Below are positions 24,343-64,000 of a stretch of 64,000 nucleotides of DNA, piece after piece. Numbering within the stretch: position 1 is the first letter of the stretch; every line of letters starts with the position of its first letter. The notes under the pieces were generated by a model. It was not told where the DNA came from. It saw nothing but the letters and a program-made list of their open reading frames with translations, and did no database searches. The DNA is from Halichondria panicea (Eukaryota; Porifera; Demospongiae; Suberitida; Halichondriidae). The stretch lies in contig NC_087392.1 of NCBI RefSeq assembly GCF_963675165.1, forward strand, positions 3,679,442 to 3,743,441. The letters are read 5' to 3'. The position numbers were made by a program, and so were the translations under genes.

Positions 24343-24495
24343 TGTGCTATTAAAACAGCCAACACGTGGGTTCACCTTCCAGGTGGCAAAGGTCGTCAAT
24401 ACAGCCCTAGATTTTTTGGAGACATCTCTGTAGATATATCTACATGCATGTCTACGTGCTAGATAGTAAGGAGCTAGAGAGTGAATTAATGAGCC
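24343..24495. promoter_or_regulatory. Bidirectional promoter: PAM17 / 3-beta-HSD-like gene
   Basis: 153 bp between divergent ATGs. It contains the E-box CACGTG at 24363-24368, as does the spacer at 13.8 kb, and no clear TATA box near either start. Inferred from position. Confidence 0.5.
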
Positions 24496-39817: not shown

Positions 39818-41944
39818 ATGTTGAGACCGATCAAACACCTCGTTCTTACCAGAAAAAGGACACAAAAATGTTTGACACATTTTCTTTTGAGCACTAGATC
39901 TACAGTAAAGTTGCCAAGCACTTCAGGTAACCCAGAACTGTACAGTGATGTGCCCAGCATTTTTGAATTAATGACTATAATTATTCAAAACACAAATTTG
40001 CTTTTTTATATGTACTAGTAAACTAGGCATATTAAGAAACTAGGCGTATTAAGAAACTAGGCAGGGCATAAGAGGTGGTTCTTTTTGGGTTTAATACTGA
40101 TCAACCATTACCATTGATCGACCCATAAATACAATAGTACTAGATACTTCCTCTTGTATCTATGATCGACCAGGCTCATCCCTAATACTGTGATAGTTAT
40201 CAAGTTACTATTGTATTCTGCAATGATAGATAAGTAATACGACTGTACAGGAGTCTATCAAAAGCACTACGATATTCTCAGTGAGTACGAGGCTCTGGTG
40301 GCTGCCGAGGAACTACAATACAATAGTCAACAAGTGAAGGTGGTCAAAGAACTAAAACGTCTTCAAGAGAGACTGTATGACTACCAACCATACAAACAAG
40401 GCTTCATGGACAGGGTAAAAATGTTGCTTTATTAGTTAGATGTAAGTCTATTCAATTATCTTTTTTTCGTGCAGCTGTTTGGTTCACGGAATAAAGTGAA
40501 AAAAATGCAGGGGATGTATATGCATGGCTCAGTAGGTGAGCTGTAAATAATGTTTGGAGTTGATCGACACAAGAATATCGAATGAAAAATAGTCTTTCAG
40601 AAGGGTTTAATAAATTTAATGTTTCTTTGCAGGAGCTGGGAAGACAATGTTGATGGATCTGTTCTTTAAAACTGTGCATGTTGAACAGAAGCGACGTGTG
40701 CACTTTAACAAGTTCATGAGAACTGTTCATGACAGTAAGCTATTAACTTAATAGCTACGTAAGGTTAATTACTTAGTTTTCATCTAGAAATTGTGCTAGT
40801 TAAATGCGTTGTAAATTAATACAGAAATTCACCATTTTAAGAAGAACGTATCGTCTGATCGTGATAGGAGAGTACCATACGATCCTATAAGCCCAGTTGC
40901 CATGGATATAGCGGCTGATGCCCACCTCCTCTGCTTTGATGAATTCCAGGTGACAGATATTGGTGATGCCATGATTCTAAAGAGGCTGTTCACTGCCCTG
41001 TTGAATGCAGGAGTGGTGGTAGTGGCTACCTCCAATAGACAACCCGATGGTGAGTGGCATTATAGTGTTGTTGCGATAGTCGTTGCCTTTACTAGCCATG
41101 CTAATTTGCACTTAGTGCCTCTTTACGTACGTATTCAGCCAATAACGAATCCTATGAACCTAAACTTATATCTGTCCCCCTATGCCATAGCCTGTATGTT
41201 ATGTGTGCGTTAATTACTACTATAATTGTTAAGTATGATGGTCTATTGGTACCGTATATCTTGTAATTATCCCAGACACTTTTCTGGGAAATGTTTGTTG
41301 TTCTAATACAGCTGGCTCATGTATCTAGACAATACCTTGATACGTTCCAAGCAACGTACGTAGCTTTATAGCTAGCAAGAGTTGTGCAGGTAGATAGCTT
41401 GAGGATAGATAGCTAGTGCAACTGTTCAGTCACACACTGTACTACAGGTTAAACTTAGCTAGCTCCCATGCAGCTGCATGCCTGTTCTAATTATCCACGT
41501 GCGCTATTCCAATTTAACTCGGACAATTTCCGAAGTACTGTCCTATCAATTTATTTATTTACAGTATATTATAGACAGGATCAGCTAAAGCTGTGCAGTA
41601 GCTAATAGTTCACTATAATCTATCTGTCTATTATCTATAAGTAAAAGTGGTGACCAGTTTCTTTGAAAGCTAGTATTCTTGATCCAGATTTGTACAAACA
41701 TGGTCTACAGAGGAGCAACTTCCTCCCCTTCATCAAGGTTCTGAAGGACCACTGTGCTATTTTTGAGCTGGCCTCGGATATAGACTACAGACGTACCGTC
41801 ATGGCAGCCACTGAGGGTAAAGTTTACCTTTCGTGAGTTATCACTATTATCAGGAGTACATTCATGCACTCGTGCTAATAATTTATGTATAGATTAATAA
41901 TTATGCCTCGAGATGTAGCCGCCATGAGGGATACGGTAAAGCTG

Positions 41945-41994
<50 letters not shown>

Positions 41995-44900
41995 TGTGTG
42001 TTTGTGTGTCTTGTGTCTGTATTCCAGTTGTAACTACTCAACGGTTGCAATGCAACAAATTCCACATTTTCTTGGATTTTTACTCGTGTATTTGCAAACT
42101 AAAGCTTCTTTCTCTTGAGTTTAATATAGCTAATTTTACTTACAGTGAAGGCTGTTTCAGAATCTTTCATAGCATCATCTGTTCGCACAAACTTTCTATT
42201 CAACTTATGAGTGTTAGTCTTGCTAAAGTGCTAGCTGTTTGTTAGCTACAAGAGTCAGAAAAGAGCTGCAAAGCTGCATGCATGTACAGTCAGAAGCAGC
42301 CCTTGTGAACTTTGACCTCATTGCAGATCCACCCCTTTTTTAATTACCGTATATGCTTGATCAGGAGCCGCGGCTACTAAATGTTTCATTTTGCTGGAAA
42401 AGGAGGCTACAATTCGAGAGAGGTCACTGTTCAAGAGCAGCGTTTACTAGCTCCAGCTAATTATGCCTCGGTGCGCATGCGCAAGCGAGGTATACGGTTG
42501 TGTGTCTGTGTGTGTGTGTAGACTAGCTGTTACAGCTGCTCAAGGATCAATGAAGTGCAAGTAAGAGTTCTATAGGCTTCTAGTCATTTTCTTGGATTCA
42601 TATTTGTGGATTTGCAAAATAAAGCTTCGTTCTCGAGTTATGCCTAGTTTTGCTTACCCATTGCAGCATTTTCAGAAGAGTCCGTAGCAAAACTTGTTCA
42701 CCAAGTGTTGCTACTCTACTTAGTAGTTAGCTCTGCACTAGAACGCTAGCTATTGGTAGCTGCATGAGTGAGAAGAGAGCTGCAAGGCTCTGCTGACTTG
42801 CAGCCATTAATTTTAGACTTGAACTTTTGGCATCGATCGTTTTTAACAACAATAATCGTCGATCATTACCCACTCTTTAAGTTTCCCTGTGATTCTGGAT
42901 TTTGCATACAATAAAATTAAAAATGTTCGTTATGATAATTATAAGCTAGCTATTAGTAGCTTTATGTTATGTAGCTTTGGCACCTCCACCGAGGCATCAG
43001 CACCCGCGGTGCTTTCATTCAGTTTGCCATCAAAAGTTATTTTCACGTTCATAAAAACTTGAACTCTGTGAAGCACTAACAAGCTGCTACCTGTACCTAG
43101 TAGCTACGTACATGTAGCTAGCTGCTAGTATTAATAATTTTTTTGGCTGCCACGTGCAGAAGTGCTAGAGTCAAAGTTCACTGAGGCTACTATTTGAGAG
43201 CGGCTACCATTTGGCTGGCAAGGGGGGCTACTATTTGAGTGCGGCCTTTATACAAGAGCGGCCTCTGGTCGAGCATATACGGTATTCATTAACACTCTTG
43301 AGAGAAAGCAAAACATGGCGAGAGGCATTAGCACAGCGCAGCTTGCAACACTTGTTACTCATGCAAGAGCAGTACAGCACAAAGGCATAACGTAATAACC
43401 TACTTATTACTGATTGTCTAATGACAATGCACTCAAAAATGCAATGCAAGCTAATAGGGTGGTGGGTGGTGCTTTAGGTTGAATCGGTCTGCATCCTGTG
43501 TAATGTCAATATCCAGGTATATTGACCACATCCCTGGTGATAATCAATATACCACCCTGTATTTACAACAGTAGTACAACCCTTTGATGTCTGACCACAA
43601 TGAACAAGAAAATTAATACTCGTTTGGTGGTTAGTTGTTGCCAATTACTAGAGTGTTTTACGAGCATTAAACATAGCTAATTTTGGAGTGTTGATCACTT
43701 TGCAAAAATCTATACCGGTGCTTTTATGGTTACGATCTTTGCCAAAACGCAAAAGTTAGATCACAAAGTGTCGACTTTTCTGCTGATTTGGCTCATTCGC
43801 AAAGCTTTTTCACGCACAAAAACATTATAATAATACATATGGTAATTAATTCTAATACCAATACTGTAGTTCACACAGTTAGGTATAGAGTACTGCATGT
43901 GATTATAATAAAGCTTAAGTTTTTGTTTTGTAGGCCCAACACCATAGAAGCTAATGCCACACTTGTCCAAGTGTTCGAGAAATTGGCCCGTGAACAAGGA
44001 GCAAGTAAGTAACTTTGCGTATTCTATTGTAGATATTTCAAGTACTGTAAACATTGGTTTGATCGCTGAGGATTTTAAGCCTTTCATATAATATCTATAC
44101 TGGCTATTTCCATAAATTACATACTTTACGGAGTACTTACTTTGTACGGTGCACTTTTGCTACATTATGACCACTGAAGTCCTCTTTCTTACAGCTCCTA
44201 GTAGAAGAGAACTAGAATTCCTCGGTCGTAAGCTGGTAGTCCCTCAAGCAGCAGGAACTCTTGCATTTTTCACTTTCAATGACCTTTGCTCTAATCCTCT
44301 CAGTGCTGTGGATTACCTAGAGCTGTGTGAAAACTTTGACACTGTGTTCATTCAAGATATTCCGCAACTAACCATTAGCACGAGAACTGAGGCTAGACGG
44401 TTCATTACAATGATTGACAACTTTTATGATCGCTGTGTGAAAATTGTTTGCACAGCTGAGGTACAGCCAGAAAATTTATTCAGAGCAAAACTGGCGACTG
44501 CTAAAGAAAGTGAAGAGTTTAGAATACTAGCAGATGATCTATCAATTGAAGAGGTACGTGAAAGTACAAAAAGACAGTGATGATTGAACTTCATCGTATA
44601 ATTATAAGAGGTGCATGTATATGTATCAGTGGATTAATGGCTGATTTAAACTCGTTCCCAAGCCGATTTTCAAACATTTAATTAGAGAAAAAACAGTCTG
44701 GGACCGAGGCTATGGCTGATTATTATACTGTTGGTGTATGTCAATAAGTATCAGCTAGCCCCTAACTACATTTACAATTTCACAATGAACGCTTACAATT
44801 AAATAATGTGTATGTACGTACGAGTAATAACAATGGCTGTCATGTCTTTTGGTCTGCCATGCAGGGAACACAAGACTACGAGGCCAGCATTTTCACTGGT

Positions 44901-46206: not shown

Positions 46207-49200
46207 CTACTTATGTTTCTTGGCACAGCGCAGAAGGAGGTAGCTTATGGCCCAGCAACCTACAGTCATTCCAATCAAAGCCCCCGTGCTCACCCAGATC
46301 CATTCAAAGTCGGTACGGAAATTGTTGTTGATTAGAACAGCGGTACCATTGACACAGCCATCTTGAGGAAAGCTATATAATTATAGGAGACAAGGGGAGA
46401 AATCAATATCGTATATATATGTATAACTGGAAAATTTGGTGGGTATTATGTTTGGCGAATGAGCCATTTAAACCAACTTGGCGGTTTCTAATTTGGTGTC
46501 TCAGGCGTGGCTACTACAGCAATGACGTTGTGTCCACCGAAAAACTTTCATTTGGCGATCTTCGTAAGATCTTCGGTAAAATTCGCTTTTCCAGTTATAC
46601 AATAATTAACTGGTAATGGAAATAATTAGCTTTCAAGAATTTAATAAGCACCTAAAATTAAAAGCATACACATTATTATAGCTCTATACATACCAAAACA
46701 GTTGCCCACTGATGTTGGTGGGTGTGGCATTGTAGAAAACACCCACAATCTCATTAACGGATAATGACTGGAAGAAAAAGTGTGATTTTAGCAATACACA
46801 AATAATGAATGTACAGCAATGTACAGCTATAGTGATTACCTGCACAATGTATTGGTAGACGCTCAGGTACTCTAGCCAGGAGAGGACGTTGGGCAGTCCA
46901 TCCAGTGACAGTAAACTACTACTAAACAGCTACACAAATAAGAGATTGTGTACAAGCATGAATACATTAATTAATGGATCACTCACGATCATGGCGAGAT
47001 TTATCATAGAGTAGACGACCAATGCGATAGAACGATTCCTTACGACGGAACTGATGGCAAAGGCTATGGATGTCCTGGTAATGGTCCCCAGGGACAACAG
47101 GAGTAGATAGATGAAGAATTTGTCCACTGTTGCCTGGTACCCTGGACAACAATTTAGTTTTTAAAATTTTGGTTTTAACCAAACCATAATCAAGCTACTG
47201 GAAATAATTTGGAGCACACATAATTGAACACTCTGACTCACCAATAATGAAGTATGTTAATACAGCGAGGATGAATGTCGGAATGAGCCTGAGTGGGACG
47301 ATATCAGTGATGATCTTGGAGATAAAGTAGGAGGAGACTCGATAGAAACCACCACCATTTTCGTGACTGCATGATGAAGGGAGATCTAGATTAAAAAGCA
47401 TGTACGTTGTAGACGTTTAAAAGCTTGAAACTATACAAGGCAAATCGATAATGTTGAGACTTGTGTTGCTCAAAATGAATGCATTTGTTGTTGGTCCGCT
47501 TATAATTATATTAACAATGGTGCGCACACACTTAACTTACATAAACAGAGCTCTTGCAGATATAAACAGGTCAAAAGCAGACAGTATCACAAAGTCTTGA
47601 GCCAGTACAATGTAGAAAAACGATCCTGTCCTAAATTTATTATATAACATTTTAAATTATTTCTCTGTGTGAAAGACCAACCTTTGCAAGACGTATAGGT
47701 CCTGTACATCAAAGGTCTGCTGATCAATACGTAATAAATAGATGCCTAACGCTATGGCAACAACAGTCATAACAAGAACCTGAATGAAAGCAAAAGCCAC
47801 TTGCTATCACACTACATATCAGAAGACAAGAGGAACTACCTGAAAGAGCACAGTTGTAGGGTTCCTGAAGTTCGCTATTGTTGATCGAACGGCAAGAACA
47901 CACACCTACATGTAGATGAAAATTTGCAACAATATTCTATCTCTAGTATCACTGACACTAGTACTGTTTCCATGTTATGTAAGTATATACTAATATTCAC
48001 CTGCCAGAAGAAAGTGGCAATTGTGGAGGGCATCCTCCTACAGGACTGGTGGAAAGAGTCGCTGCATCTCTTCCTAGCACTTGGTTCAGACTCAGTGTTG
48101 GCATGTTTCAGACATTTCTCAATGACTTGAGACTCCTCTGACTTCTGGAACTCTTGTATTAGGTTCAGCGTCTCCTTTGGCTTGTGTTTGCGGACCGTCC
48201 TTCTGTGAAGAGCTGTATATGTGTGAGGGGTCAGAGGGTAAGAGTATATATGTATAGTGGTTGTTACTGAGTAGAAGGAGTTAGCAAACTTACAGATAGC
48301 CGAATGTGAGTCGTTGAGAATGTCCAACAAAAAGTCTGCTGGATTTTCCAACTCCTCAAGTCCATAGCCTGAGGTAAGCCATACAATTACAGTCGTGGTA
48401 TGAATGAGCACTTACCAAGTCTACCAAAGTAGTTAACGACGTGACTTGCCTTGCCCTGGTAGATGACGCTGCCCAAAGAGAGAAGAGTGAGACTGTCAAA
48501 CAGTTTGAAGATGGAGTAACGAGGTTGGTGGATGGAGAGGATGACCAGTCGATTGTCCTCCATACACCAACTGCAAGGACAGCGAAACAATTTGTGATAT
48601 CCTCAGCTATGGCCAGCACAGACTATAAACCAACAGTCAGGGGTGCATCAAGAAACCTAGTGAAGGTCTGTACAGCTAGTCAGCTTCAGAGTTGTCAACT
48701 AGTAGATGAAGGGACTTACTCCTGCAGAGTCTGTACTACAGAGACGGCCGTGTGAGCGTCCAGTCCAGTGGTGGGCTCATCCATGAACAATACAACTGGG
48801 TCTATGATCAACTCCATCCCAATCACTGTCCGCCTCCTCTCTCCCCCTGACACCCCTCGGATGAACTCTGTGCCAATCTGAAAGAGGTGGTGGGTACTTA
48901 TACAGTGGTTACTATACGCATATATGGAGCTAATCATTAGAGCAATGCTACCATATAGCTAACCTCGTCCCCACGCCCACTTCACTTCGAAGGAAGAGGG
49001 CCTGGTATCGACTACTTGCGCACGCACTAACTTTACCCCGGTATCTGGGGGCTACAGATAACAACGTAAATGGTCAATAAAACAATGACGTCACAACAAG
49101 AATGGGGGGCTACGGATAACAACGTAAATGGTCAGTAAAACAATGACGTCACAACGAACGGAGAGGATTGAAGGTTTCTAGCCCTATCTGATAGCATGCT

Positions 49201-52200
49201 GATAGCTACCCTTAGCCTGCTATGCTATCAAAGACTGGACTGCCTGCAACAGTGTGGATGACCACAATCTAAACAGAGTGAAAGCCGACAACTAGTCTAT
49301 AGATGGGCGTGGTCCGTCCATCTATAGATAGATGGATAGATGGACGGACCACGCCCATCTAACGCTAACCTGGTGAAAGTTTACATGTAGACTACCTATA
49401 GCAGGTAATTTTCATTGGGTAAAATATTCGTTATTTTCGTGGGCAAGCTGACCTACACGAAATTTTAACGTAGGCGTGGCTTACCGGAACGTAGGAATGC
49501 AGTGCAGGCAACGAGACTAAACGAAATTTTTACTCACGAAAACTACCGCTTCTCGAGTTAAAGAGCTGCTGCAACAAACCTACATGTAGTTAGCTATAAA
49601 ATTAACTCTGAAATTGTCTGTAGATTAATGAGTCAGGATATTTTTTTGATTCAATGCATGCACAAAACAGTCAGTAAAAGCGTTCTACTCAAGAGAGAGG
49701 CCTGCACATGAGCGGGTGATTTCCAGGTGGTCAAAACATTCGTTGGCAATACGTAGTCAATTCATAGGTTATATTTTTGGCTGCGTGTGCCCTATAGGTA
49801 AAGCTGGTTAATGATCGCTTCATTCATTAGTAAATATTCGTGATCAGAGATTCAACTATAAAAACTACAAAATGTTTGCCCACTACCAATATACAGTACT
49901 ACCAAACAAACCCAAACATGCAGTCCAAGCTTACTGTAGAGTCTGCACAGGTGATGAGGCCCAGCTGATGGATAATGTGTTGCACCCTCTGTGACCTCTC
50001 CTTGTTAGTAATATCCCGAGGCAATCGCAGAGCAGCAGAGAACTGGAGATTCTCTCTCACTGTCAAAATACCTTCCAAAATGTCCTCCTAGGGAATAATG
50101 AGAGATGGTGAATCAAGAGTGAAGGGTGGTCTATTCAGCTCAGCCCCTATGGTTGTACACAGCTACTGCAGACCTATATACCTGCACGACATAGCCAGTT
50201 CTTAAGTTAAAATCGCCAGGCAAATGCTCTCCATTGAGCAGAACAGAGCCTGTGATTGTCTGTGAGAGTCCAGAGGTGCCCTTACGCTTGGCTAGGATGT
50301 CCAGTAAACTGCACAGTGGATAATGAAAATCAAAAATACAAATTATATGCATCAACTTACGTTGTCTTTCCACCTCCCGTGGGTCCCATAATGGCGTTGA
50401 TCCCAGGAACCATCACTCCACTGCACCAAGCACAAACACATCTTATGCCACACAATAAGTGCTATTGGTGTAAACGCCTTACACACATAAGAAGTCTTGG
50501 AAGGTGAAAAGCTTTACCCGGACCCATGGAGCAACACAATATAATAAGCAATCAAGAGCCTGTCACATAATTATTAGCACCAGCTAGCTATATATAGTCC
50601 AACCCTATCAGAGAGTGTACTCAGCTCACCTGACATTGCTTAGGATGGTCTTGGTGGTCCAGTGGCACTTGTTGAATCCCCTCACCGAGTAGGACACATT
50701 CTGGAAGGTCATGGCATGCTCACTGCTTATCTCTGGACAGGACTGCTCGGGGGAGAGGGTGTGGTCTTCAAAGGGGGGGTGCTCTGAGCACTCAATGACT
50801 TGGACGTCCTCTGACAGACTAATAGCACTACGAATGGACATACTAGGATCCACCACCCCATCGACTGACTCTTCACAAAATACTGTCACAGAGGACGTCT
50901 GTACATGGGTGTGAAATACTCAACCATGCATTGCTCAATTTATAATTATCGCACACATTAAGAGTTTGTGGAAATCTGCTTGTTTGTCCTGCCAGACCAC
51001 TATCTCGATATGTCTATGTCCAGCTTAAATATACAAATCAAATACGAAGTTCATATACAGTATTATAGCCTATTGGCGACCACAATCAACGACTTTATGG
51101 AGAGTACAAGTTGATATCGATATCGTACCAAGATGTGGTAGCAATATCTCAAGGAGACGATTTCCACCTAAAGCACCACCTACCGCCCTGAACTTCATCC
51201 TTTTATAAGATACGTACTGCATTTTGAATTTACTGTGGTTATTTGCCGTATCAAATTAAGGTATGAATAAATAAGTGGTGCAAGCTGCACTGTGCTAATG
51301 CCTCTCGCCGTTGAAACTATTAGAAGAGGTGAACAGGTGAACAGGTATAATTATTGTTGGTGTCAGAATTTTACATTAACAGGTCATACCCTTATTGACA
51401 CGTTACCACCGACATTAATGTGCATGCACTGCATGTCACACTACAGGTTTCAGCATGTATAAACCTCATCATGTATAATTATGTAGTACCGTAGTGCTAG
51501 AAATGTATGCGTGATACAAAACTATTTATGCAATACTTGCATAACTTTATATCGCACAATTTACTATTTTCTACTGTTTTGATGACATCACAAGCTGCTA
51601 ACCACAAATCGATGACACTCAAATTAACCACGTAAGTGGGCGTACAATAACTGTACGTCCACTTTTAATTACGTTTGTGGTTGATTAAAGCATCATTGGT
51701 TTGTGGTTTGCAGCTGCTGATGTCATCAAAACAGTAGCAAATAGTAAATTATGTAGCTTTTCAGTGTTATCTCAGCAATGGAATAAGCATATAGGATGTT
51801 CTTGGTATCAAAATGTAGCCCATTTATCTGTAAACTTACTACAGAAATTTGAAAGCTAAGCTATTAATTTTTCAAAAGTTATTACTCTAACCAAAAGTGT
51901 ACCTAAAAACCGGTAAATCTTGAATTATAGACACTGTGAGCATATGTAAGACCCATAAAGGGATGATCAGGATACCTAAACCATTAAACTATTGTGTGAT
52001 AAAAGTCTAAGACCTTAGCTGTTTAAAGTTAGTGTTTTATTACTCTAACCGATTACCCACTATAACAATTTGCTGTTGTTCTATTAATCACCACAAACCC
52101 ACCATCTTATGTTTCCATGGAAACATTTTTGGATATGTTGTAGTTCAGTCATTCATCTACACACGGGTATCAACACCATTTCTTAGAAATGCTCCAATCA

Positions 52201-52677
52201 AAAGATATTTACATTTAAGTTCAACTACTCACACATTTGTGGTATTCTACTCTCTAGACTAAATGAACTGTATATAATTATAACAACATAGCGACAGGTA
52301 TTCACTATAAGGCCACTCAGAGTGATACTCTGGTTTCTGGCCAGGAATAATTGCATATGCGGGCAGACGGCTTTTGTCATTATGGTATTATTGGTTTCAC
52401 GGCGTTATGAATCTCATTTTTTGCAAATGAATTTCGTTTGCTCCTGGAACACTATTTTGTGCACATGGACTATTGTGTGAATGCTAGTAGAAATAATATG
52501 ATGCCAGGGTGGACCAGACACCAGAGTAATACTGGGGGGTTGCAATGCCAATACAAACCATAGATGTACCTTTTTTTTGGTTCCACTGCTCTTGAGAATG
52601 GACCTGGTTGTTGTGCAGGGGATTTCCTCCATCACAATATCTCCAGTATGTATGTGTGCCGTCTGACTCTCATCCAT
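46207..52677 (-). CDS. ABCG2: ABCG2-like half-transporter, copy A
   Basis: ABCG half-transporters dimerise to export lipids and xenobiotics with ATP. Seventeen exons in phase, 2181 nt, 726 aa: 52677-52570, 50898-50630, 50420-50361, 50308-50182, 50087-49935, 48877-48720, 48570-48416, 48368-48294, 48212-48001, 47905-47840, 47779-47682, 47630-47541, 47366-47242, 47141-46987, 46929-46840, 46767-46694 and 46372-46207. The order is nucleotide-binding domain first, then six spans, as in ABCG. Walker A GPTGGGKTT (about 138-146), signature VSGGERRR (248-255), Walker B VVLFMDEPTTGLD, H-loop SIHQPR. Membrane part includes HENGGGFYRVSSYF. Substrate unknown. Intron 5 carries two TGACGTCA motifs. Confidence 0.93.
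49047..49155. repeat. 58-bp direct duplication carrying two CRE motifs
   Basis: Two copies of a unit from GGGGGCTAC to GACGTCACAAC (49047-49097 and 49105-49155) each contain a perfect TGACGTCA (49086-49093 and 49144-49151). They lie in intron 5 of ABCG copy A. Whether they bind CREB/ATF is not shown. Confidence 0.75.
49300..49361. repeat. Perfect hairpin, 26-bp arms
   Basis: TAGATGGGCGTGGTCCGTCC (start of the left arm, 49300-49325) is fully complementary to 49336-49361, with a 10-nt loop. In ABCG-A intron 5. Confidence 0.85.
51543..51760. repeat. Long imperfect palindrome, probable MITE
   Basis: Arms containing TTTACTATTTTCTACTGTTTT, GATGACATCA and AACCACAAA mirror each other around a centre near 51655 (GTACAATAACTGTAC). 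It lies in intron 1 of ABCG copy A. Confidence 0.65.
52040..52260. mobile_element. Partial third copy of the mariner-like family
   Basis: It shares TTTCCATGGAAACA, a TTTTGGATAT-type stretch, TTTCTTAGAAATG and TGTGGTATTCTACTCTCTAGA with the copies at 20972-21668 and 9060-9713. It is in intron 1 of ABCG copy A, upstream of both ABCG starts. Confidence 0.5.
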
Positions 52678-52832
52678 GGCTTGCTTTGTGTGCACCACAC
52701 CTTTGCCGGTTTTCTTAAGTAGATCTATAGGTATAATTATAGTCTAATTAGCTAGATATATGCGGTTAGACTAATTGGAATCAGATCAACACTTGCAGTA
52801 GTCTATACAAGACACAATAATAAAAAGCAGAA
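52678..52832. promoter_or_regulatory. Bidirectional promoter of the ABCG pair
   Basis: 155 bp between the two divergent start codons. It includes a short inverted pair (TAGTCTAATTAGCTAG / TTAGACTAATTGG). No CACGTG or clear TATA box. Shared control of both copies is inferred. Confidence 0.5.
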
Positions 52833-53002
52833 ATGGAGAGCGTCCGCCTAGACAATGAAGGTTGGCCGCTAGATGACATTCCCTACACATCAAACCCTAC
52901 ATCACCGACCAAGTCCATTCTCAAGAACAGCACCTCCAAGGTAGCTAGCCTACCGAAACCTGCATGCCATTTTTTCTTGTACGAGTTTGTAGTTTCTACG
53001 AT

Positions 53003-53033
<31 letters not shown>

Positions 53034-56000
53034 AGAAATTTTTATGCAAAACCAAGGTGTGCATAAGGGTAGATCAGGTAGCTCAGATGGCTAGTGTGAA
53101 GACTTCCCCTGGACAACACAAAAACAGAGAAATAAAACAGGAGCTACGGCTAATTATAATAATTATTACACAAAAAGCTACTGAGGTTCGATTTAAATGA
53201 TGAATCAGAGGAGCTGTTGATAACTTCTGGTGGTAAAGAATTCCATTTTGGTATTACATCCAGAAAAAAGGAATGTTTGTGGGATGAGGTGCCCACATGT
53301 GGTATAAAGAGTATTTGGCTGTGCGGATGACGGGGGGAAGGGGATGGGTGGGGTGAGAAGACAGAGGGAGGAATACAGGATTTGTTGTTGATGATTTTGA
53401 AGCATACTTTAAGTTTTTGGATATTCCTGCGGTCTTTAAGAGATTTGAGTTGGAGTTTGTTAAGTAGAGAAGTATAGTCAGATTTCCATTCTTTGGTTAT
53501 GATTTTGCAGGCAAATGATTGGGTGTTCTCCAGTTTCTTGGTGAGTGTTGATTGATGGGGGTCCCATACTGCGGCGCAGTATTCAAGTTTGGGTAGTACA
53601 GTGCTCCTGTAAATTGTATGCTTTGATTGCTGTGATGCATCTTTTAACTTCCTGTGGAGCAATCCCAGTTGTTGTTTGGATGTCCTCACAGTGTTGGTAA
53701 TGTGCTCAGACCAGGACAGATTCTTAGAGATGGTGACGCCGAGGTACTTGAAACATTCCACAATGGGGATTTGCTGGTTTGAAATAGAGAGGGTGAGTGG
53801 GATCGCATTCATAGATCTTGTGATGGGTAGAACATTGGTTTTTTTGTTGTTTAGAAGGAGACCATGTTGTATAGTCCAGTTGTGAACTGCATTAATATCC
53901 TGCTGGAGCTGAGTGAGATCGTTATCTGAAATTACTGGCCTGTAAAGGAGGATGTCATCAGCATATAGGATTAGCTTGGTTCCGGGGCAGAGCTTTATTT
54001 CATTCAGCGAGTCCATGAATATAATGAACAGTAGGGGTCCCAGAATAGAGCCTTGAGGGACTCCAGGCTCTATTCTGGGACCCATTATTTATATTATAGA
54101 TAAAAACAATGGGTATGACGAATCCAAGAGCTCTTATGATGGCAAACTACTTAGATCTATATTATATCTACAGACGTTTGTTTTTATAGACAAGTGTGCG
54201 TGTATGATATCAAGAGCTCTTGTATTTAATATACAGACGTCCTCTGTGACAGTGTTTTGTGAAGAGTCAGTCGATGGGGTGGTGGATCCTAATATGTCCA
54301 TTCGTAGTGCTGTTAGTCTGTCAGAGGACGTCCAAGTCATTGAGTGCTCAGAGCACCCCCCCTCTCCCGAGCAGTCCTGTCCAGAGATAAGCAGTGAGCA
54401 TGCCATGACCTTTCAGAATGTGTCCTACTCAGTGAGGGGATTCAACAAGTGCCACTGGACCACCAAAACCATCCTAACCAATGTCAGGTGAGCTGAGTAG
54501 ACACTCTGATAGGGTTGGACTATAATCATAATTATAGCGAACTAATAATTATATGACAGGCTCTTGATATTGGTAGGCATTTACTCCAATAGCTAAATGG
54601 ATCACTTATTGCGTGACATAAGATGTGTTTGTGCTTGGTGCAGTGGAGTGATGGTTCCTGGGATCAACGCCATTATGGGACCCACGGGAGGTGGAAAGAC
54701 AACGTGCGTATTTTTGATGTTCATTATCCACTGCACAGTAAAAACACATTTGTTACAGTAACATACAACATGTTAAATAATAGAAATGACATACATTTCT
54801 GTCATTTTAACACTAAAGGGAAAATATGTGTTTTTGCTGTGTGTGCAGTTTACTAGACGTCCTAGCCAAGCGTAAAGGCACCTCTGGACTCTCACAGACA
54901 ATCACAGGTTCTGTTCTGCTCAATGGAGAGCATTTGCCCAGCGACTTTAACTTGAGAACTGGCTATGTCGTGCAGGTAGGTCTATAGGGGCTGAGCTGAA
55001 TAGACCCTTCACTTCACTATCTCTCATTATTCCCTAGGAGGACATTCTGGAAGGAATTCTGACAGTGAGAGAGAATCTCCAGTTCTCTGCTGCTCTGCGA
55101 TTGCCTCGAGATATTACTAACAGAGAGAGGTCACAGCGGGTGCAACACATTATCCAACAGCTGGGCCTCATCACCTGTGCAGACTCTACAGTAAGCTCGG
55201 ACTGTTGGTAGCATTGCTCTAATTATCATAGCTCCATATAATATATAGTAGCCACTGTACCCACCACCTCCTTTAGATTGGCACAGAGTTCATCCGAGGG
55301 GTGTCAGGGGGAGAGAGGAGGCGTACAGTGATTGGGATGGAGCTGATCATAGACCCAGTTGTATTGTTCATGGATGAGCCCACCACTGGACTGGATGCTC
55401 ACACGGCCGTCTCTGTAGTGCAGACTCTGCAGGAGTAAGTCCCTTCATACACTATACATGTAGTTGACAACTCTAAAGCTGTCTAGCTACATGTATAGAC
55501 CTTAATTAGTTGCTTCTTGATCCATCCCTGGCCATAGCTGAGGATCACAGAGTGTGTTAATAGTCCTATTCGTTTACATGTAAGAGCCTGGAATTTTGAT
55601 TGCTTTTTGAACGCCCACTAACTACTTCTTGTATAGCGTCTGCAGTAAATTGTGCTGAGCTGGCACACCCTTTTACATTGAAGCAAAAGTTCATTGAAGT
55701 CATTGTAAAATAAAAGCACCGCATGTGCTGATGCCTCGGTGTAGATGCCAAACCTACATAACATGAAGCTACTAATAGCTTATACACATGATGAACATTT
55801 TTTCAATTTGCTGCATGCAAACTTAAAGAGTGGGTAATGATAGACCATGATTGTTGTTAAAAACGATCGAGTTCAAGTCTGCTGGCTGCAGAGCCTTGCA
55901 GCTCTCTTCTCACTCTTGCAGCTACCAATAGCTAGCGTTCTAGTGCAGAGCTAACTACTAAGTAGAGTAGCAACACTCGGTAAACAAGTTTGGCTACGTG

Positions 56001-59000
56001 CTCTTCTGAAAGGCTGCAATGGCATTCCAAGTAAGCAAAACCAGGCATAACTCGAGAACGAAGTATTATTTTGCAAATCCACGAATTAAAATCCAAGAAA
56101 ACATGACTAGAAGCCTATAGAAACTCTTACTTGCATTTCATCGATCCTTGAGCAGCTGTAGCAGTCTACACACACACACACAAACACACACAAACACACT
56201 ACCGTATACCTCGCTTGCGCATGCGCACCGAAGCATAATCAATGCGTTTTTGCAGCCTCTGCATTCTGCAATGCATGCACTATTAGAAAGGAAGTTTGTG
56301 AAATAATTATTGAAATAAGAGCTACACAATGGTTGTCAACTGTCAGTGAGCTAGCTAGTCTTGAATATACCTACTATATACACAATAAGTGCAGTAGTAG
56401 TAGATCTAAGAGGTAAACTAATGCTCAAGGATGGTGGAACATCTCCTCTACACAATTATTCAGATGCCTACTATCAGGAGTACTGCTACTATATGTATAT
56501 ATTTATAAGGTGTTCCATCATCTTTGAGCATTAGATTACCTCTTAGATCTACTACTACTGCAGTTACTGTGTATATAGTAAGTAGGTATTTTCAAGACCA
56601 GCTACCGTAATTGATGTAATTACAGCGCCAGAAAAAATTAATTCCTCTTCTGAGTGGCGCATCTTTAGAACACAAAAAAATTGCGTTCAGCCCAAGCTGG
56701 CACCTAAATTATGGTGGCGCTTATCAACAGCTAGTATTGAATTTGTAGAGAAAATGGGCGTGGTCTAGCTCAGTTTCACTTGCTAAGCTGCATCGTTGAG
56801 AGTAGTCTCGAATACCAGCCGGTTCTCATTGTAGTGTGGGAGAGAGAGAACCGTCTGGTTACTCTGGGCAGAACGTTCTGTCAGTCAGGAATGTAATCAT
56901 CCTGTTTAACCACGTGGATAATAACCCACAATTTAGTGAGCACTACTGTTATATTCTTGAAAGCTATCTTACATTCTTGTGGGTAAGCTTCAATGAATAT
57001 ACTCTTCTTGCGGGTAAGGCTTCAATGAATATACTCTACCAACATTCCGTCCGAGGACAGAAAAGTATGCCCAGAGCAACCAGACGGTTCTCTCCCTCCC
57101 ACGCTACAATGAGGACCGGCTGGTATTCGAGACTACGTTGAGAGCTGAGTGACTTGTGAGAACAACATTAATTGACTGTAGCTATGGGTTAGACGAAGTG
57201 ATGGAAGTCAAAGATGCAGGATGATTGTCTTGATGTCTCAAACAAACCTTTTTATAAGCGCCAGAAAAAAATAAATCCATCAACGGTTGGCACTTTTTTA
57301 GGACCTAAAAATTATTCTGATGCTGACGTGGCACTTAAATTATGGTGGCGCTGTAATTACATCAATTACGGTAGCTCACTGACAGTTGACAAACACTCTC
57401 TGGGACAAAAACCATTGTGTATCTCTTACTTCAATATTTCACAAACTTCTTTTCTTTAGATAATAGCACATGCATTGCAGAATGCGGAGGCTGCAAAAAC
57501 GCATTGATTTTACAATGATAAAAGGGTGTGTCAGCTCAGCACAATTTTACTGCGGAAGCTATATACAGGAAGTAGTTAGTGGGCGTTCAAAAAGCAATCA
57601 AAATTCCAGGCTCTTAAACGAATAGGACTATTAATTATTGTCCCTGCAGTTGGTGTATGGAGGACAATCGACTGGTCATCCTCTCCATCCACCAACCTCG
57701 TTACTCCATCTTCAAACTGTTTGACAGTCTCACTCTTCTCTCTCTGGGCAGCGTCATCTACCAGGGCAAGGCAAGTCACGTCGTCAAATACTTCGGTAGA
57801 CTTGGTAAGTGCTCATTCATACCACGATTGTAATTGTATTGCTTGCCTCAGGGTACGGACTTGAAGAGATGGAAAATCCAGCGGACTTTTTGTTGGACAT
57901 TCTCAACGACTCACAATCGGCTATTTGTAAGTTGCTAACTCTTTGTGCTCATAACAATCACTATACATACTAGCCTCAATTCCAGGCCGCGAGGAGAAAG
58001 GCGGCCTGGTATACCTTGTATGCGCATGCACGAAATAATTGACAATTTCATCATACAAATTGTAAAAAAACGGACAAAGTTACAAAAGGGAAGAATACGT
58101 ATGACAATGTGACCACAATGGCAGCTTTCAGAGACACTAATCAAAGTAGAATAATTATGCTGCAGCAGTGTTGCTTCTTCTAGCTCTGTTTATCAAAGAG
58201 ACAGTTCAAGAAAGCCTCCCAGACAGCTAGAGCTGCCAGCTAGGAAGAGTGGTGGACTCTTTAATACATCAGTAGATCTTGAGTGAATAACTTTCTGAGT
58301 GTCGAGTTAAAGCTTATTAAAAGCTTTCAGGAGTAATCATTAGCTTCTTTATCTTCAGCAATGACTTCCTGTCGAACATAAAGGCAAGATTTAGTAGCAG
58401 AAGACTTGCCTGGTCCATATTACCACAGCCTCATCAGGGGACCCACAGGAACACATCATGCCTTTCTTACAACATCTGTAGCCTTACAGTGTAGGGTGTC
58501 CTTAAGTAGAGACTTGGCTTGATACAATAAAGGGCGTAAGAACTCAGTCATCTTTGCACAATACTTCTATGTAACGGACTGTAAAATATAAATAGTATAC
58601 GGTTTATTTTACTGACAGTATCCACAAATACACGGATTACCCCCTTTTTGGGGTATACTCTTACCCTCTGACCCCTTACACACACACAGCTCTTCACAGA
58701 AGAACGGTCCGCAAACACAAGCCAAAGGAGACGCTGGACCTAATACAAGAGTTCCAGAAGTCAGAGGAATCTCAACTCATTGAGAAATGTCTGGAACATG
58801 CCAACACTGAGTCTGAACCAAGTGCTAGGAAGAGATGCAGCGACTCTCTCCACCTGTCCTGTAGGAAGATGCCCTCCACAATCGCCACTTTCCTCTGGCA
58901 GGTGAATATCAGTACAGCCTCACTATACTTACTTAACCATGGCAACTGTATCAATGTTACTGGATAGCAATTATAAAAAAATGAGTGTATTTCATTACAT

Positions 59001-62000
59001 TTAGTTTTTCCTTGCAGATATTAGTCCTCGCTGTTCGCTCAACCATAGCCAACTTCAGGAATCCAAGCACTCTTCTCTTCCAGGTATCATGTGATGTTAC
59101 ACCAGTTCCCTGTATGTAACGTTTAACCCAATAATTATGTCTGTTTACTCACGACTCAGACCTGTGTGATGATTGCGATGGGCTTTGTGGTGGGTGTGGT
59201 CTATTACCAGATTGACGATAGGATGTTCACTATCCTGAATAGCTTTGTTTCTGACAGGTGATCAAGTTTGTGCGCATGTCCTCTACTAGGCTTGGACTAG
59301 CCTGTGATACTGATACGTACCTTTTAATACATTAGTTTTTGGGGAACAATGTTTAATTGGGCCGCCTTTGTTGAGGGGTTGTTTTGGGACCTGCATGGGT
59401 GCTTGGCGTTTATATCGTCGTTGGCCTTCAGCTAAGAGTGGCCATTAAGAGTGGGTCCACTCAAAACACACATTCTGACTGCAGGCTTGGTGCGTTGTTC
59501 TTCATAATACTGATTCAGGAGTTTGGAGTGCTCTCTGGTTTTGAACTTTTCATTTCTGCAAGGCCTCTCTTCATGTATGTTTCTATAGCTACTGTTAATA
59601 CGTACACACAGCCAGCATACATCAATTAGTATATGTACCGAGCATAATTATATAAAACATTATGTTATGTATGTACATGTATGTAGTGTGTCATATTACT
59701 TATCATGCATGTAAGAGCCAACTAGTGCGCTCAATTACAGTTTTATACATTTACCCCTTCCTATCATGCAGTCACGAGAATGGTGGTGGTTTCTATCGAG
59801 TCTCCTCCTATTTTATCTCCAAGATTGTCACTGATATCATCCCCCTCAGGCTCATTCCTGTTGTCCTATTCTCTGTTATCTCATACTTCATGATGGGTGA
59901 GTCTCATGCCCTCAGTAGAGTTGTCCATTTAACATACAGTAGCTACAGATAATTGGCATTCATTTCACTTTACCTTTGTGTTCATGATACCACCAGTTCT
60001 CGTACTTGTATGTCATAAGCTCAGAATACTTTGCAGCTTGTGTTGGCTATTGGCGTGACAGTGAGACACAAACTAAACACTGCAGCGCTCAGTTCTTAAT
60101 ACAATGTCCAGATCATTAATTTTACACAAATGTCACCAGCAGACATAATTATGAGCTTAAAATAAACTACAGTGCTAACGATAATGATTGTTATTATGCC
60201 TCGAGACGGAGCCGCACGAGGGATACGATAAAGCTGACTGCATGTGTGTGTGCGTGTGTGTGTATTCCAGCTGTAACTGCTTAACGGTTGCAATGCGACG
60301 AAACTAAAGGCTTTTAGCCAAGTTGTCTTGGATTTTGACAACTAGCTTCTTTCTCGAGATATGGCTACAGTGAAGGTCGTTACAGTCTCTTCAGAATCTT
60401 TCGTAGCATCATCTGCTCGCACAAACTTTCTATTCAACTTATGAGTTAGCCTTGCATTAAAGAGTGCTGCTGTTTGTTAGCTACAAGAGTCAGAAAAGAG
60501 CTGTAAAGTTGTTCACTGAGCACCAGTAAACCCTGACCTCTTTGCAGATCCACCCTTTCATTGACAAGAAATGCAAAATATTTATTACATTGATGCCTCT
60601 ATCCGTGAGATCATTCATCAAGCTATCAGATAGAGACTTTGGTTTCCATTAAGCCTCTTCTATAACACTCTATTGATCGTTCATTGTCAATAATTTGCAA
60701 TGCAAACATTATTGTAACATAACACTATACAAAGCAAAATTATCTCTTCTATAACACTTTAAAGTGAAGGAAATATGCCGAGAGGCATTATAGCACAGCG
60801 CAGCTGGCAACATTTCATAATCTTAGTATCAGTTGCGTACTGTACTACGTGTGAAGCCTTTATACAGTGGAACGTTTTGCTAGGTACACTTAATTTATTG
60901 GGACTTAACCCTTTCCCCGTTGAAGCCGTCATATGACGGCCACTCTAGTGGTTATCTTCAAAAATTCATTGTGCCCGCTGTGTTGGAGGTATGCGCACGC
61001 TGTAGGTACCAGCACATGCATTGAGCTGCTCTTTCACGTGGTATCTTTAATATGCTGCCTCGAGGTACGCTTTGTACAGTATTAAATGTCGAAAGAAAAG
61101 TGACCGTTTGATAATGTTTCAAGATCTTCGTAGTACAACCTCAGTGAGGTTCTAAAGTAGCTAGACAGTGAGAATATCGATGCTTATGGCCTTGTTGAGT
61201 GAGAGGACAGTGATTGGGATCATAGCTAGATAAAATGCTACCTCAAGCTAGAAAATATAGAGCCTAAAGGCCGAGGAAGAAGCTCTTGCGATGGAACAAC
61301 TTCTTGGATCTGGTAAGTCTAGAGAGTAGCATCTACAGTCTTGATAGCTTCAGTATAACTGTATTTAGGCTAGTTAGTACATCAGTGGACATCATGAGCC
61401 ACCATTGAACTTGTAAACCTGTGAGTAGGTGAAGAAAACATTTTCCGGGAAAAGGGCGTCTGCTGATACGACCTCGCAGAGAACTTTCTGCAGATCCTGA
61501 TTGAACCATGTCACCGTGAGAACATTGAGAACACTTATTTAGTGTCTTTAGCCACTCTGTGCCCTCATATAATATTATTTGTGTACATAGTTGTGAATGT
61601 TTGTAAACAATTGCTAATTAGTGGGGATGGTCAGTTGCTAGGTAACGAAGATGGTGTCAAGATACCTCTGGGGTCTGCGCTACCTGTAGGAAATAGTTAC
61701 AAGTCATTTCAATGTATGGTTCATGACATATGAATTTTTAAAGAAAATTCTTCTGTATTTTCGTGTTTTAATTAAAACAGGGAAAGGGTTAATTTGCCTA
61801 TAATATAATTATAGCACTCGGCCATATCAGGGGTGGCCAATTAGTACAACCAGTAGGTTGTACATAGGATTGACAGTGCGTTTTCAATGATGAACACATT
61901 TTGACTCGTTAATATACACACATTGATCAAGTTGAGTGGGATTAATACAGTATGTGGTCTCAGAATGTACAGTGCAAATAGAACTTCAGTGGAGCTGTAG

Positions 62001-63825
62001 CAAGTTTTTTTTATTACAATTAAAGTACAGTACATAGGGTTACTCAAAAAAAGGACACAAACAAGCTAAGCTGGTTTATGGGTTGACATTAGGGGGCTTA
62101 TGGTACTCAAGTACCCCCATTCTACCTCAGATGAGCTAACACCCCTTCTCTTCTTGATATCTTGCTGGAGTTAGCTAGCTAGTAGGCAAACAAAATGATT
62201 CAGTCTCTAGACAGTGAGCTGCCGTCATTCTTCTAGTTACAGCGCCAAGTTCATGAAGTAATTTTTTATTTTACTCCAATTGTAAATTCTGACATTATTT
62301 AGTGCTTACACTTGAAAAGTTTATGATAGCCTTGTAGAAACGGCTACTATAGTATAACTCTGACCTAACCCTTAACTACTCTACGTTCTAAGCCCCACTC
62401 TAATATAAGCACCAAAATATATTTTTCTTGTTCTATGTGCGCCAGTGCACGGAAAGTCATAATTAATTTTGTGGCACTGTAATTAGAAGACGGTAGTCAA
62501 GCAAGGTCAATAATACACCATTCTCTTCATTGGCATAATTATGGAGCTGTTTTCTGAGGCTGTGTTGAAATGTCATTCTATGCATGCTTGCTGTTACATT
62601 CACTGTATTAATGTTTGACTTACCTTAAGGTGACATATTTTCGCGTGTATTAATTTCTGCTATTTCTGCGAATGAGAGTAAAATCGCAAAAATTAATACT
62701 CGCAAATAATTGGCCGCCCTCTTGTTTAATGTATCCAGATTGACATTTCGCAAAATATTATACCGCAAAATGTACAAAACTGTAAAAATGCAAACAAATC
62801 TACCTGTGAAAATATGTCACCTTAAGGTAGTTGTTGCTTATACTGCTTAAACATATTTTAATGATATTCATAATCATATCCCTTACTGTGGTTACAAATG
62901 TGGTTACAGCTAAGTTACACAGAATATTGCAAGTTTTACCTGTATACATTAATCTGTTAACTGTTGGTGTGCCCCCAACTGATCGTTTATTTACATTGTG
63001 CATGCACAAGGGGTAGAGTGGGGTGTGTGTGTGTCGGTTTGTGTGTGGACACAAAAATGAGCTGTTTGAGTGAACTATACACTTTTATGAACTGCTTCTG
63101 CTAATGAGACAGTGGTTGAAAAATAATAGGCTATTGAAACTTGTAGACAATCTTCGAAGGCGACAAAAAACACTGCTTTCTAATCAACACTGCTTTCTAA
63201 TCGCTCATTCCCCATAATGTTATAATAAGGTCATTATGATTTATCCATTTTGCCGCTGTGCAATGAAGCTCAACGCACAGAGTAAATTCTCTAGTTTATT
63301 TATGTATTCCAAAACCAAAACATTAATTGGGCACGCGCACTAGACTATAACTGAAAGAGAAGTAGTACTCATGTTTGTGTCGTTTTTGGTGTTTGAGCAA
63401 TTAACCCGCATTTTCTCCAATTTTTTCACACAAAGTTGTTTGCACTTGTTGTGTGTAGGTTTTCAGCTCTCTGCTGGCAAGTTTTTCATCTACCTGCTCA
63501 TGCTGTCTCTGGGGGTGGTTGCTCTCTCCTCTCTGGCCTTCCTTATCAGTGCCGCCATCAAGAACCACTCCATTGCCATAGTAACCTTCACCCTCACCCA
63601 CTTCATCATGCTTGTGAGTGTGTTAGGTTCATTATCTGTTGCAAGGGCTGCGCACACACATGTACGTGGATATGTTACAGTAGCTGTGGATCATAATCAG
63701 GTATTACATTTAATGTTCCCTCTCTTATCTTGCAGTTGTTCAGTGGCTTGTTGATCTCTATTAGCCGGCTGCCTGACTTTCTAGGGTGGCTGCAATATGT
63801 CAGTATCTACCAGTACGTTTTACAG
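52833..63825 (+). CDS. ABCG2: ABCG2-like half-transporter, copy B (3' exons outside the window)
   Basis: Divergent duplicate of copy A. Fifteen exons are visible: 52833-52940, 54237-54487, 54644-54703, 54849-54975, 55038-55190, 55277-55434, 57650-57804, 57852-57926, 58690-58901, 59018-59083, 59160-59257, 59485-59574, 59772-59896, 63459-63613 and 63736-63825. Every exon except the second matches copy A in length and phase; exon 2 is 18 bp shorter (lacks FEDHTL). The ATPase motifs (GPTGGGKTT, VSGGERRR, MDEPTTGLD, SIHQPR) are intact. Exons 2-9 are almost identical to copy A, while exon 1, exons 11-12 and exons 14-15 differ clearly (for example MGFVVGVVYYQID against VAIALGIYLLRID). By comparison with copy A, two more exons should lie beyond 64000. 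Introns 1, 6 and 13 are swollen by mobile DNA. Confidence 0.92.
53004..54083 (-). mobile_element. 5'-truncated LINE with reverse-transcriptase fragment
   Basis: The minus strand encodes about 300 residues: the RT motif GVPQGSILGPLLF, the catalytic YADD, FKYLGV, and a C-terminal part with KWNSLPPEV and SSFKSNLSSFL, as in CR1/Jockey-group non-LTR elements. The endonuclease and the first half of the RT are missing. A run of 25 T (53004-53028) fits the poly(A) tail on the minus strand. The 5' junction is a perfect 18-bp-arm hairpin at 54035-54083. It lies in intron 1 of ABCG copy B. Incapable of movement on its own. Confidence 0.85.
54035..54083. repeat. Hairpin at the LINE 5' junction
   Basis: GGGTCCCAGAATAGAGCC (54035-54052) and GGCTCTATTCTGGGACCC (54066-54083) are exact inverted copies around a 13-nt loop. 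The left arm is genuine RT coding sequence; the right arm is an inverted duplicate of it. Confidence 0.9.
55710..56231 (-). mobile_element. Nested element, inverted copy of 42464-43010
   Basis: Shares, in reverse, GCACCGCATGTGCTGATGCC, AAAGAGTGGGTAATGAT, GCAGCTCTCTTCTCACTC, a CA microsatellite and CGCTTGCGCATGCGCACCG with AFG1L intron 6. It interrupts the left arm of the foldback element. Confidence 0.65.
56353..56608. mobile_element. Nested hairpin MITE inside the foldback arm
   Basis: Arms around GCAGTAGTAGTAGATCTAAG (56391) and CTTAGATCTACTACTACTGC (56552) pair over about 95 bp. Removing the segment restores continuous pairing of the foldback arms (GTGAGCT joined to ACCGTAATTG). AGCT occurs at both edges. 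Confidence 0.6.
60196..60788. mobile_element. Element with ATGCCTCGAG ends
   Basis: Starts ATGCCTCGAGACGGAGCCGC and ends GCCGAGAGGCAT; same family and orientation as 41902-43328 but without its nested insertion. In intron 13 of ABCG copy B. Confidence 0.6.
60909..61788. mobile_element. PiggyBac-like element, internally deleted
   Basis: 880 bp between two TTAA sites (60905-60908 and 61789-61792), with terminal repeats CCCTTTCCCCGTT and AACAGGGAAAGGG. A subterminal palindrome GCCGTCATATGACGGC lies next to the left end. No complete transposase frame is present. A lone TTAACCCTTTACCTG end near 20500 is probably related. Confidence 0.65.
61793..63458. other. Remainder of ABCG-B intron 13
   Basis: No exon seen before 63459. 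It includes the TA-flanked MITE at 62621-62829 and a GT-rich stretch near 63025. Confidence 0.4.
62621..62829. mobile_element. Mariner-type MITE with CCTTAAGGTGACATATTTTC ends
   Basis: CCTTAAGGTGACATATTTTC at the left and GAAAATATGTCACCTTAAGG at the right, perfectly inverted, with TA at both edges. 205 bp, non-coding. Confidence 0.75.
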
Positions 63826-64000
63826 GTAAAATACAATTGTACTAAATAACAGTTTGGTATACGATACATCCATGATTGTATTTGTACACAGTACTGATTG
63901 GTTGCTACAAATATGCCAAATTAGATTCGTATTGCCATACTGTCACAGCCTAGCTGCCTTTCGTTTTGCATGGAACAATGTTTGTTATTCTCACGTAGTC

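Follow-up and report, generated by a model that had tools for sequence, protein, structure and literature searches.

How can two neighbouring genes be almost identical over one half of their coding sequence and diverged to near saturation over the other? This question is raised by two ABCG2-like half-transporter genes, here termed A and B, which lie head-to-head in a 64,000-nucleotide stretch of DNA from the sponge Halichondria panicea. The stretch as a whole, referred to as the window, lies on contig C16, one of the 39 contigs that make up the 131-Mb genome. An earlier note on this DNA had suggested a duplication followed by gene conversion over the ATPase half. Judged from the sequence comparisons described below, this is very probably what happened: A and B appear to be old duplicates, the ATPase halves of which were homogenised by ectopic gene conversion.

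The models of both genes were built from splice sites and mutual alignment. Gene A (46207..52677, minus strand) comprises 17 exons and encodes 726 amino acids, with the Pfam domains ABC_tran at residues 133-276 and ABC2_membrane at 439-653. Gene B (52833..64297, plus strand), likewise of 17 exons, encodes 720 amino acids, with ABC_tran at 127-270 and ABC2_membrane at 433-647. Both proteins thus have the half-size order of an ATPase domain followed by an ABC-2 membrane domain. Gene B runs past the window, which ends at 64000; its exons 16 and 17 were taken from the adjoining contig sequence, and position 63825, previously given as the end of the pair, is the end of exon 15. Both frames are open, and all introns are of the GT-AG type. 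The two start codons are separated by 155 bp (52678..52832, ATG to ATG in the gene models), a spacer presumed to act as a bidirectional promoter. Two 17-exon genes diverging from a 155-bp spacer, as first described, are therefore what the models contain, and both are intact.

The exon structures of A and B correspond closely. Exon lengths are equal at 16 of 17 exons, or 14 of 15 when B is restricted to the window, which is the count reported earlier; the only mismatch is exon 2 (269 vs 251 nt), and the phases match at 17/17. In a search of solved structures (PDB) with B and with gene C (introduced below), which gave human ABCG2 as the best match of both, B scored 477 bits against ABCG2, 316 against fungal CDR1, 229 against ABCG8, 222 against ABCG1 and 202 against ABCG5. 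For bird ABCG2 genes, eleven exon lengths are listed as conserved (PMC7362505). Seven of the eleven (60, 153, 158, 90, 125, 155 and 90) recur in A and B, so that the exon structure is largely ancestral; the equal lengths in A and B therefore do not date the duplication and are no sign of recency. The 100 kb to each side of the pair contained no further ABCG2-like copy at E 1e-5.

Divergence along genes A and B

Synonymous divergence (Ks) between A and B is sharply uneven, and an even divergence along the whole gene, which would have spoken against conversion, was not found. Over exons 2-9 (397 codons) Ks is 0.125 and nonsynonymous divergence (Ka) 0.019, with single exons ranging from Ks 0.00 to 0.42. 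For exon 1 (A, 52570..52677, minus; B, 52833..52940, plus), the diverged flank to the left, Ks is 1.09. The diverged flank to the right, exons 10-17 (A, 46207..47905, minus; B, 59018..64297, plus, in the window to 64000), encodes the membrane half and has a Ks of 1.68 and a Ka of 0.305, with exons 14-16 saturated. The Ks of exons 2-9 is hence about 9 times below that of exon 1 and about 13 times below that of exons 10-17. Protein identity follows the same division, with 90-100% in exons 2-9, 38% in exon 1 and 57% in exons 10-17 together, in agreement with the contrast noticed at first sight.

A segment scan over all codons keeping their amino acid, in which the low-divergence segment was compared with shuffles, placed the best segment at residues 24-439 of A. 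Inside it, 32 of 376 synonymous codons differ, against 78 of 162 outside, and none of 500 shuffles (0/300 in a separate run) reached this. The segment begins towards the end of exon 1, where a 23-bp stretch has stayed similar in the two genes. Because the synonymous differences over exons 2-9 are compatible with a single rate (chi2 12.0, 7 df, p 0.10), one main event is sufficient to explain them.

The introns were compared by local alignment of A against B after trimming of the splice-site bases, again with shuffles as the reference. Introns 2, 3, 4, 5, 6, 7, 8 and 9 are homologous (0/100 shuffles each). Introns 10, 11, 12, 14, 15 and 16, reached by 18 to 84 of 100 shuffles, are not above chance, and neither are introns 1 and 13 (4/20 and 14/20). 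Intron 7 is identical at 44 of 47 positions; intron 9 is alike at its start and then fades, with 67% identity overall. A permissive alignment with nearly free gaps gave 92.6% intron identity, which is overstated, and stricter alignments were used. The low-divergence exons and the homologous introns share their boundaries. With homology in introns 2-9 but in neither intron 1 nor introns 10-16, homogenisation acted on the DNA itself rather than on codons alone.

As intron 1 is not above chance, the left edge of the homogenised DNA lies 8 bp before exon 2. From there the tract runs through exon 9 and fades in intron 9, its right edge being approximate. It corresponds to 47930..50906 (minus) in A and to 54229..58975 (plus) in B, where the span includes insertions that are absent from A. 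Aligned to human ABCG2, it takes in the ATPase domain, the linker and a few residues of the elbow helix, for which the published limits are F373-N391, the first intracellular loop being E451-R465 (PMC7756363). A tract of low divergence is thus bounded on both sides by old divergence. Because the flanks are old on both sides and the exon phases are the same, both full genes must predate the conversion.

One exon of the membrane half departs from the rest. Exon 13 (A, 47242..47366, minus; B, 59772..59896, plus) has a Ks of 0.36, and a patch in its 5' part, corresponding in the protein to the rear portion of the first intracellular loop and the beginning of the third transmembrane helix (TM3), differs at 3 of 24 synonymous codons, compared with 72 of 134 elsewhere. 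As 87 of 1000 shuffles did as well as this patch with high and low segments both counted, and 24 of 500 with low segments only, it is taken only as a hint of a second, older conversion tract.

Both proteins retain the Walker A, Q-loop, signature, D-loop and H-loop motifs and the Walker B glutamate; Walker B, read in the alignment of A to D, is LFMDEP or LFLDEP. With a complete set of catalytic motifs, A and B would each be expected to hydrolyse ATP. ABCG2 possesses a dileucine valve (PMC7756502). The sequence FSGLL is shared by human ABCG2 and B (63736-63825) and is replaced by FSSSL in A (46929-46840). This stretch, which we take to be the site of the valve, makes FSSSL a candidate for altered transport in A. 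At the other end of the proteins, the diverged first exons both keep the sequence SILK, preceded by a basic residue; it presumably resembles a docking motif of the phosphatase PP1.

Other head-to-head ABCG pairs

The genome was searched with the B protein for other ABCG loci, and two further head-to-head pairs were found. On contig C4, gene C (minus) and gene D (plus) start 293 bp apart; on contig C3, gene E (minus) and gene F (plus) start 346 bp apart. All four frames are open and encode 670, 666, 717 and 679 amino acids for C, D, E and F, respectively. The best solved match of C is human ABCG2, with 569 bits (477 for B). That of F is plant ABCG25, and there is no clear human counterpart among its matches.

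In the E/F pair, low divergence again includes the introns. Exons 2-6 have Ks values of 0.04-0.06, flanked by 0.24 in exon 1 and 0.59 in exon 7; exon 8 is saturated, and exon 9 has 1.05. Where they can be aligned, introns 1-6 are 88-100% identical (0/50 shuffles each); for introns 7-9, which 27, 4 and 50 of 50 shuffles reached, homology is not clear. The segment scan found 19 of 322 synonymous codons differing inside the segment and 69 of 206 outside (0/500 shuffles). Non-coding sequence is thus homogenised inside the tract in E/F (introns 1-6) as it is in A/B (introns 2-9), which supports DNA conversion as the probable origin of the E/F tract.

In C/D, the alike stretch is smaller. The exon equivalent to exon 6 of A and B is alike at 53 of 53 amino acids and has a Ks of 0.08; the exon preceding it has 0.31, and the remaining exons range from 0.58 to saturated. 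Inside the scanned segment 4 of 88 synonymous codons differ, against 120 of 253 outside (0/500 shuffles), and an extra low segment in the ATPase half, at residues 249-262 of C, shows 0/14 differences (6/500 shuffles). The near-identical DNA, 187 bp at 98.9%, comprises the exon equivalent to exon 6 and only 17 and 12 bp of the introns beside it. Thirteen introns were tested; for 11 of them, between 4 and 43 of 50 shuffles did as well. The match of introns 11/12 (0/50) falls in dinucleotide-type repeats and was set aside; that of introns 7/8 (14 of 15 bases, 0/50) is very short and was given no weight. As the intron between its two low-divergence exons is not homologous, the C/D tract could have arisen through a spliced copy (cDNA). 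For A and B, that route was considered, since the exons are alike and the introns had at first looked different, and rejected, introns 2-9 being homologous once the insertions are set aside.

Other ABCG-type loci include a C7 gene with a membrane-domain match and two same-strand C9 loci about 58 kb apart, which were called ABCG-like from their ATPase domains alone. The C9 loci are 74-81% identical in three ATPase blocks, with no near-identical tract between them, and the C7 locus has no DNA match to the first C9 locus. A weak membrane-domain match lies on C16 at 2307974, besides many weaker ATPase matches. The ABCG family search missed A and B, so the locus counts are lower bounds. Low-divergence ATPase segments are therefore present in 3/3 head-to-head pairs and 0/1 same-strand pair, a contrast that is suggestive but small.

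A tree of the membrane halves, built from the six genes of this genome only, splits A and B from the rest with 100% support and gives C and D no firm position (50%). An ancestral head-to-head pair, which would group A with C and B with D, was sought in this tree and not found. Because of the position of C and D, one inverted duplication and three are both compatible with it.

Origin of the tract

The events may be pictured as follows. An ABCG2-like half-transporter gene would have been duplicated in inverted orientation long ago, giving two copies transcribed apart from the present 155-bp spacer. Well after their divergence, exons 2-9, introns 2-8 and the start of intron 9 of one copy would have replaced the corresponding stretch of the partner, the part encoding the ATPase domain together with the linker and the very start of the elbow helix. 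Similar events, over other stretches, probably took place in the two further head-to-head ABCG pairs. The likeliest cause of the preference is that the ATPase exons, being the most constrained, had kept enough similarity for pairing and exchange, from which the membrane halves were excluded by their greater drift. The outcome would be a pair of pumps whose motors are nearly identical and whose membrane halves differ.

Several observations weigh against this account. The last exon of E/F, in the membrane half, is homogenised as well (Ks 0.14; 3/56 synonymous codons vs 57/129; 0/500 shuffles), and a diverged linker stretch interrupts the first E/F tract; conversion is consequently not limited to the ATPase half. 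In C/D, the intron between the two low-divergence exons (5/6) is not homologous (8/50 shuffles), and because the intron evidence is weak, conversion in this pair is argued mainly from coding sequence. The comparison consists of three pairs in one genome, contrasted with one same-strand pair, and by a rough estimate three tracts placed at random over the coding length would all fall in the ATPase half about 1 time in 10, which is not very rare. The usual proof of conversion, moreover, is that paralogues are closer than orthologues inside the tract only, whereas the evidence here comes from a single genome.

It is scarcely credible that no conversion occurred and that very strong selection, acting on silent sites too, preserved the ATPase half while the rest diverged. 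The ATPase domain is the more conserved part in any case, its divergence between A or B and C or D being 41-42%, against 57-65% in the membrane half. Such selection is nevertheless contradicted by the likeness of introns 2-9 and its absence from introns 1 and 10-16, by the size of the Ks contrast with both flanks, and by the different and smaller set of alike exons in C/D, the other ABCG2-like pair. Codon-level constraint was rejected for A and B on the intron evidence. A chimeric capture, in which exons 2-9 were recently duplicated in inverted orientation as a partial copy and fused with the membrane half of another transporter to form a new gene, is highly improbable. It would explain why the ATPase and membrane halves differ in age, and the presence of the exon 9 region in a stray 326-bp copy at another place on C16 indicates that pieces of gene A can be copied to new sites. 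However, the diverged flanks are homologous on both sides (exon 1 and exons 10-17) and keep the same phases and exon lengths, and an insertion at exactly matching positions is what conversion does. The chance of an assembly artefact, be it one locus folded back or two haplotypes laid side by side, is close to negligible. Inverted, near-identical adjacent blocks are a known shape of such artefacts, but two more pairs have the same arrangement, a Ks of 1.7 is out of reach for haplotypes, and the copies have intact frames, distinct insertions and membrane halves of 57% protein identity. Because they differ in every intron and throughout the membrane half, A and B are not one locus assembled twice.

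The preferred account, conversion steered by residual homology, has a more serious competitor in selection. Heterodimers or shared regulators may favour a common motor and linker, and conversion in the membrane half may be purged so that two substrate paths are kept. This is possible, though doubtful. It is in keeping with the head-to-head order and the short spacers of 155, 293 and 346 bp, an arrangement known from ABCG5/ABCG8 (PMC7756502, PMC1579226), with tracts that cover the motor and, weakly, the loop docking on it, with the difference between A and B at the residues aligned to the valve, and with the published precedent of TLR1/TLR6 (PMC2077338). Homology-driven conversion yields the same pattern without selection, however, and the homogenised last exon of the C3 pair lies in the membrane half. 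The earlier note had offered selection for different substrates as its alternative; the Ka/Ks of exons 10-17, about 0.18 and rough as Ks is near saturation, instead points to overall constraint on both membrane halves, and the stretch as a whole bears no sign of positive selection. For expression and pairing alike, the argument from selection is drawn from sequence only.

ABCG5 and ABCG8 are half-size transporter genes arranged head-to-head with a shared promoter (PMC7756502, PMC1579226, PMC1413519), and their products are obligate heterodimers (PMC7756502). By analogy with them, it is proposed that A and B may be co-expressed and paired. The sequence itself shows that both genes are intact, that A and B form a mosaic extending into the introns, and that three pairs are mosaics in their coding sequence; co-expression from the spacer, an A-B heterodimer and different substrates are inferred. 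A broader reading would make divergent ABCG pairs a permanent arrangement of this animal: conversion would time and again return both ATPase halves to one sequence while the membrane halves specialise, yielding matched homo- and heterodimers from one promoter. It is rather unlikely as it stands; if true, it would mean one motor serving several substrate paths.

The elements of the proposed history are known from other systems. In Candida krusei (Pichia kudriavzevii), the neighbouring paralogous pumps ABC11-ABC1 are kept alike by recurrent gene conversion (PMC6053246). Like A and B, they are neighbouring ABCG-class genes (of the fungal pleiotropic drug resistance type) affected by conversion; unlike A and B, they form a direct tandem and are 98% identical overall, whereas A and B are inverted half-size pumps with intron-bearing tracts and a saturated membrane half. 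The primary paper on ABC11-ABC1 is reportedly that of Lamping (2017). In mammalian TLR1/TLR6, also neighbouring paralogues, conversion homogenises one functional part while the other diversifies, as described for nine species (PMC2077338); these are tandem receptors, in contrast to the head-to-head transporters of a single genome considered here. ABCG5/ABCG8 share with A and B the half size, the head-to-head order and the short spacer, and a mite also carries a head-to-head pair of this kind (PMC3724490). By sequence score, B and C match ABCG2 far better than ABCG5 or ABCG8, which speaks against their belonging to that clade. The literature passages described no homogenised tract between ABCG5 and ABCG8, and no sequence test for one was made.

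Within the ABC family, the bird ABCG2 and ABCG2-like genes belong to the same family as A and B and have many of the same conserved exon lengths, yet GENECONV gave no clear evidence of conversion between them (PMC7362505), in contrast to the tract of A and B. The head-to-head genes ABCA3/ABCA17P share patches of high identity with a non-significant GENECONV result, and transfer of mutations to ABCC6 from its pseudogenes is cited as gene conversion (PMC1579226). Both cases involve a human pseudogene; A and B are two intact genes. Conversion between neighbouring ABCG-class pumps, conversion of one domain and head-to-head ABCG genes are thus already known. A partial literature search revealed no pair of working animal ABC genes in which conversion is confined to the ATPase half. 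Nor did it meet the present combination, in which a domain-bounded tract is established from introns in two head-to-head pairs, with a third showing it in coding sequence.

Conversion that respects a domain boundary gives one protein halves of unequal evolutionary age. Trees and orthology assignments of ABCG transporters can be misled by it if they are based on the well-aligned ATPase domain. The three head-to-head pairs of this genome are natural replicates for asking which of the two directs conversion, residual homology or selection on the function of the shared motor.

Insertions and neighbouring sequences

The largest insertion within the tract is an element of about 2.1 kb in intron 6 of B (55557..57635, plus). 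It is flanked by TTAA and absent from A, and its joined flanks align with intron 6 of A. Its two ends, of about 69 bp, are inverted copies of each other, further inverted repeats are nested in it, and a 441-base query from its end had at least 54 other matches in the genome to some part of it. The TTAA target suggests an element of the piggyBac type. By alignment, intron 5 of A contains an extra 966 bp (48955..49920, minus) that are absent from B, and intron 8 of B an extra 684 bp (57970..58653, plus) that are absent from A. Because the partner copy lacks them, the insertions in introns 5, 6 and 8 most simply postdate the conversion. Outside the tract, intron 1 of B harbours a reverse transcriptase fragment of 312 codons (53150-54088, minus; Pfam RVT_1), by its look of the non-LTR (non-long-terminal-repeat) type.

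The stray 326-bp copy is a reverse copy of the intron 8/exon 9/intron 9 region of gene A, located on C16 at about 3502841-3503166, some 224 kb from A. It sits between two direct repeat copies of about 53 bp, apparently within or beside an unrelated gene, and looks like a templated insertion. At 48 aligned sites that differ between A and B, some of them in poorly aligned flanks, it is A-like at 30, B-like at 9 and like neither at 9. As it may have been copied after the conversion, its likeness to A does not settle which gene was donor and which recipient.

In the upstream flank on C16, at window coordinates -95627 to -90863, lies an inverted pair of 656 bp with 99.4% identity, which by this identity would be younger than the A/B tract. 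Other genes of the window encode a flavin amine oxidase (4302-6600), an enzyme of the 3-beta-HSD (3-beta-hydroxysteroid dehydrogenase) or epimerase type (24493-25755) and an AFG1-like ATPase split over exons (40815-44580).

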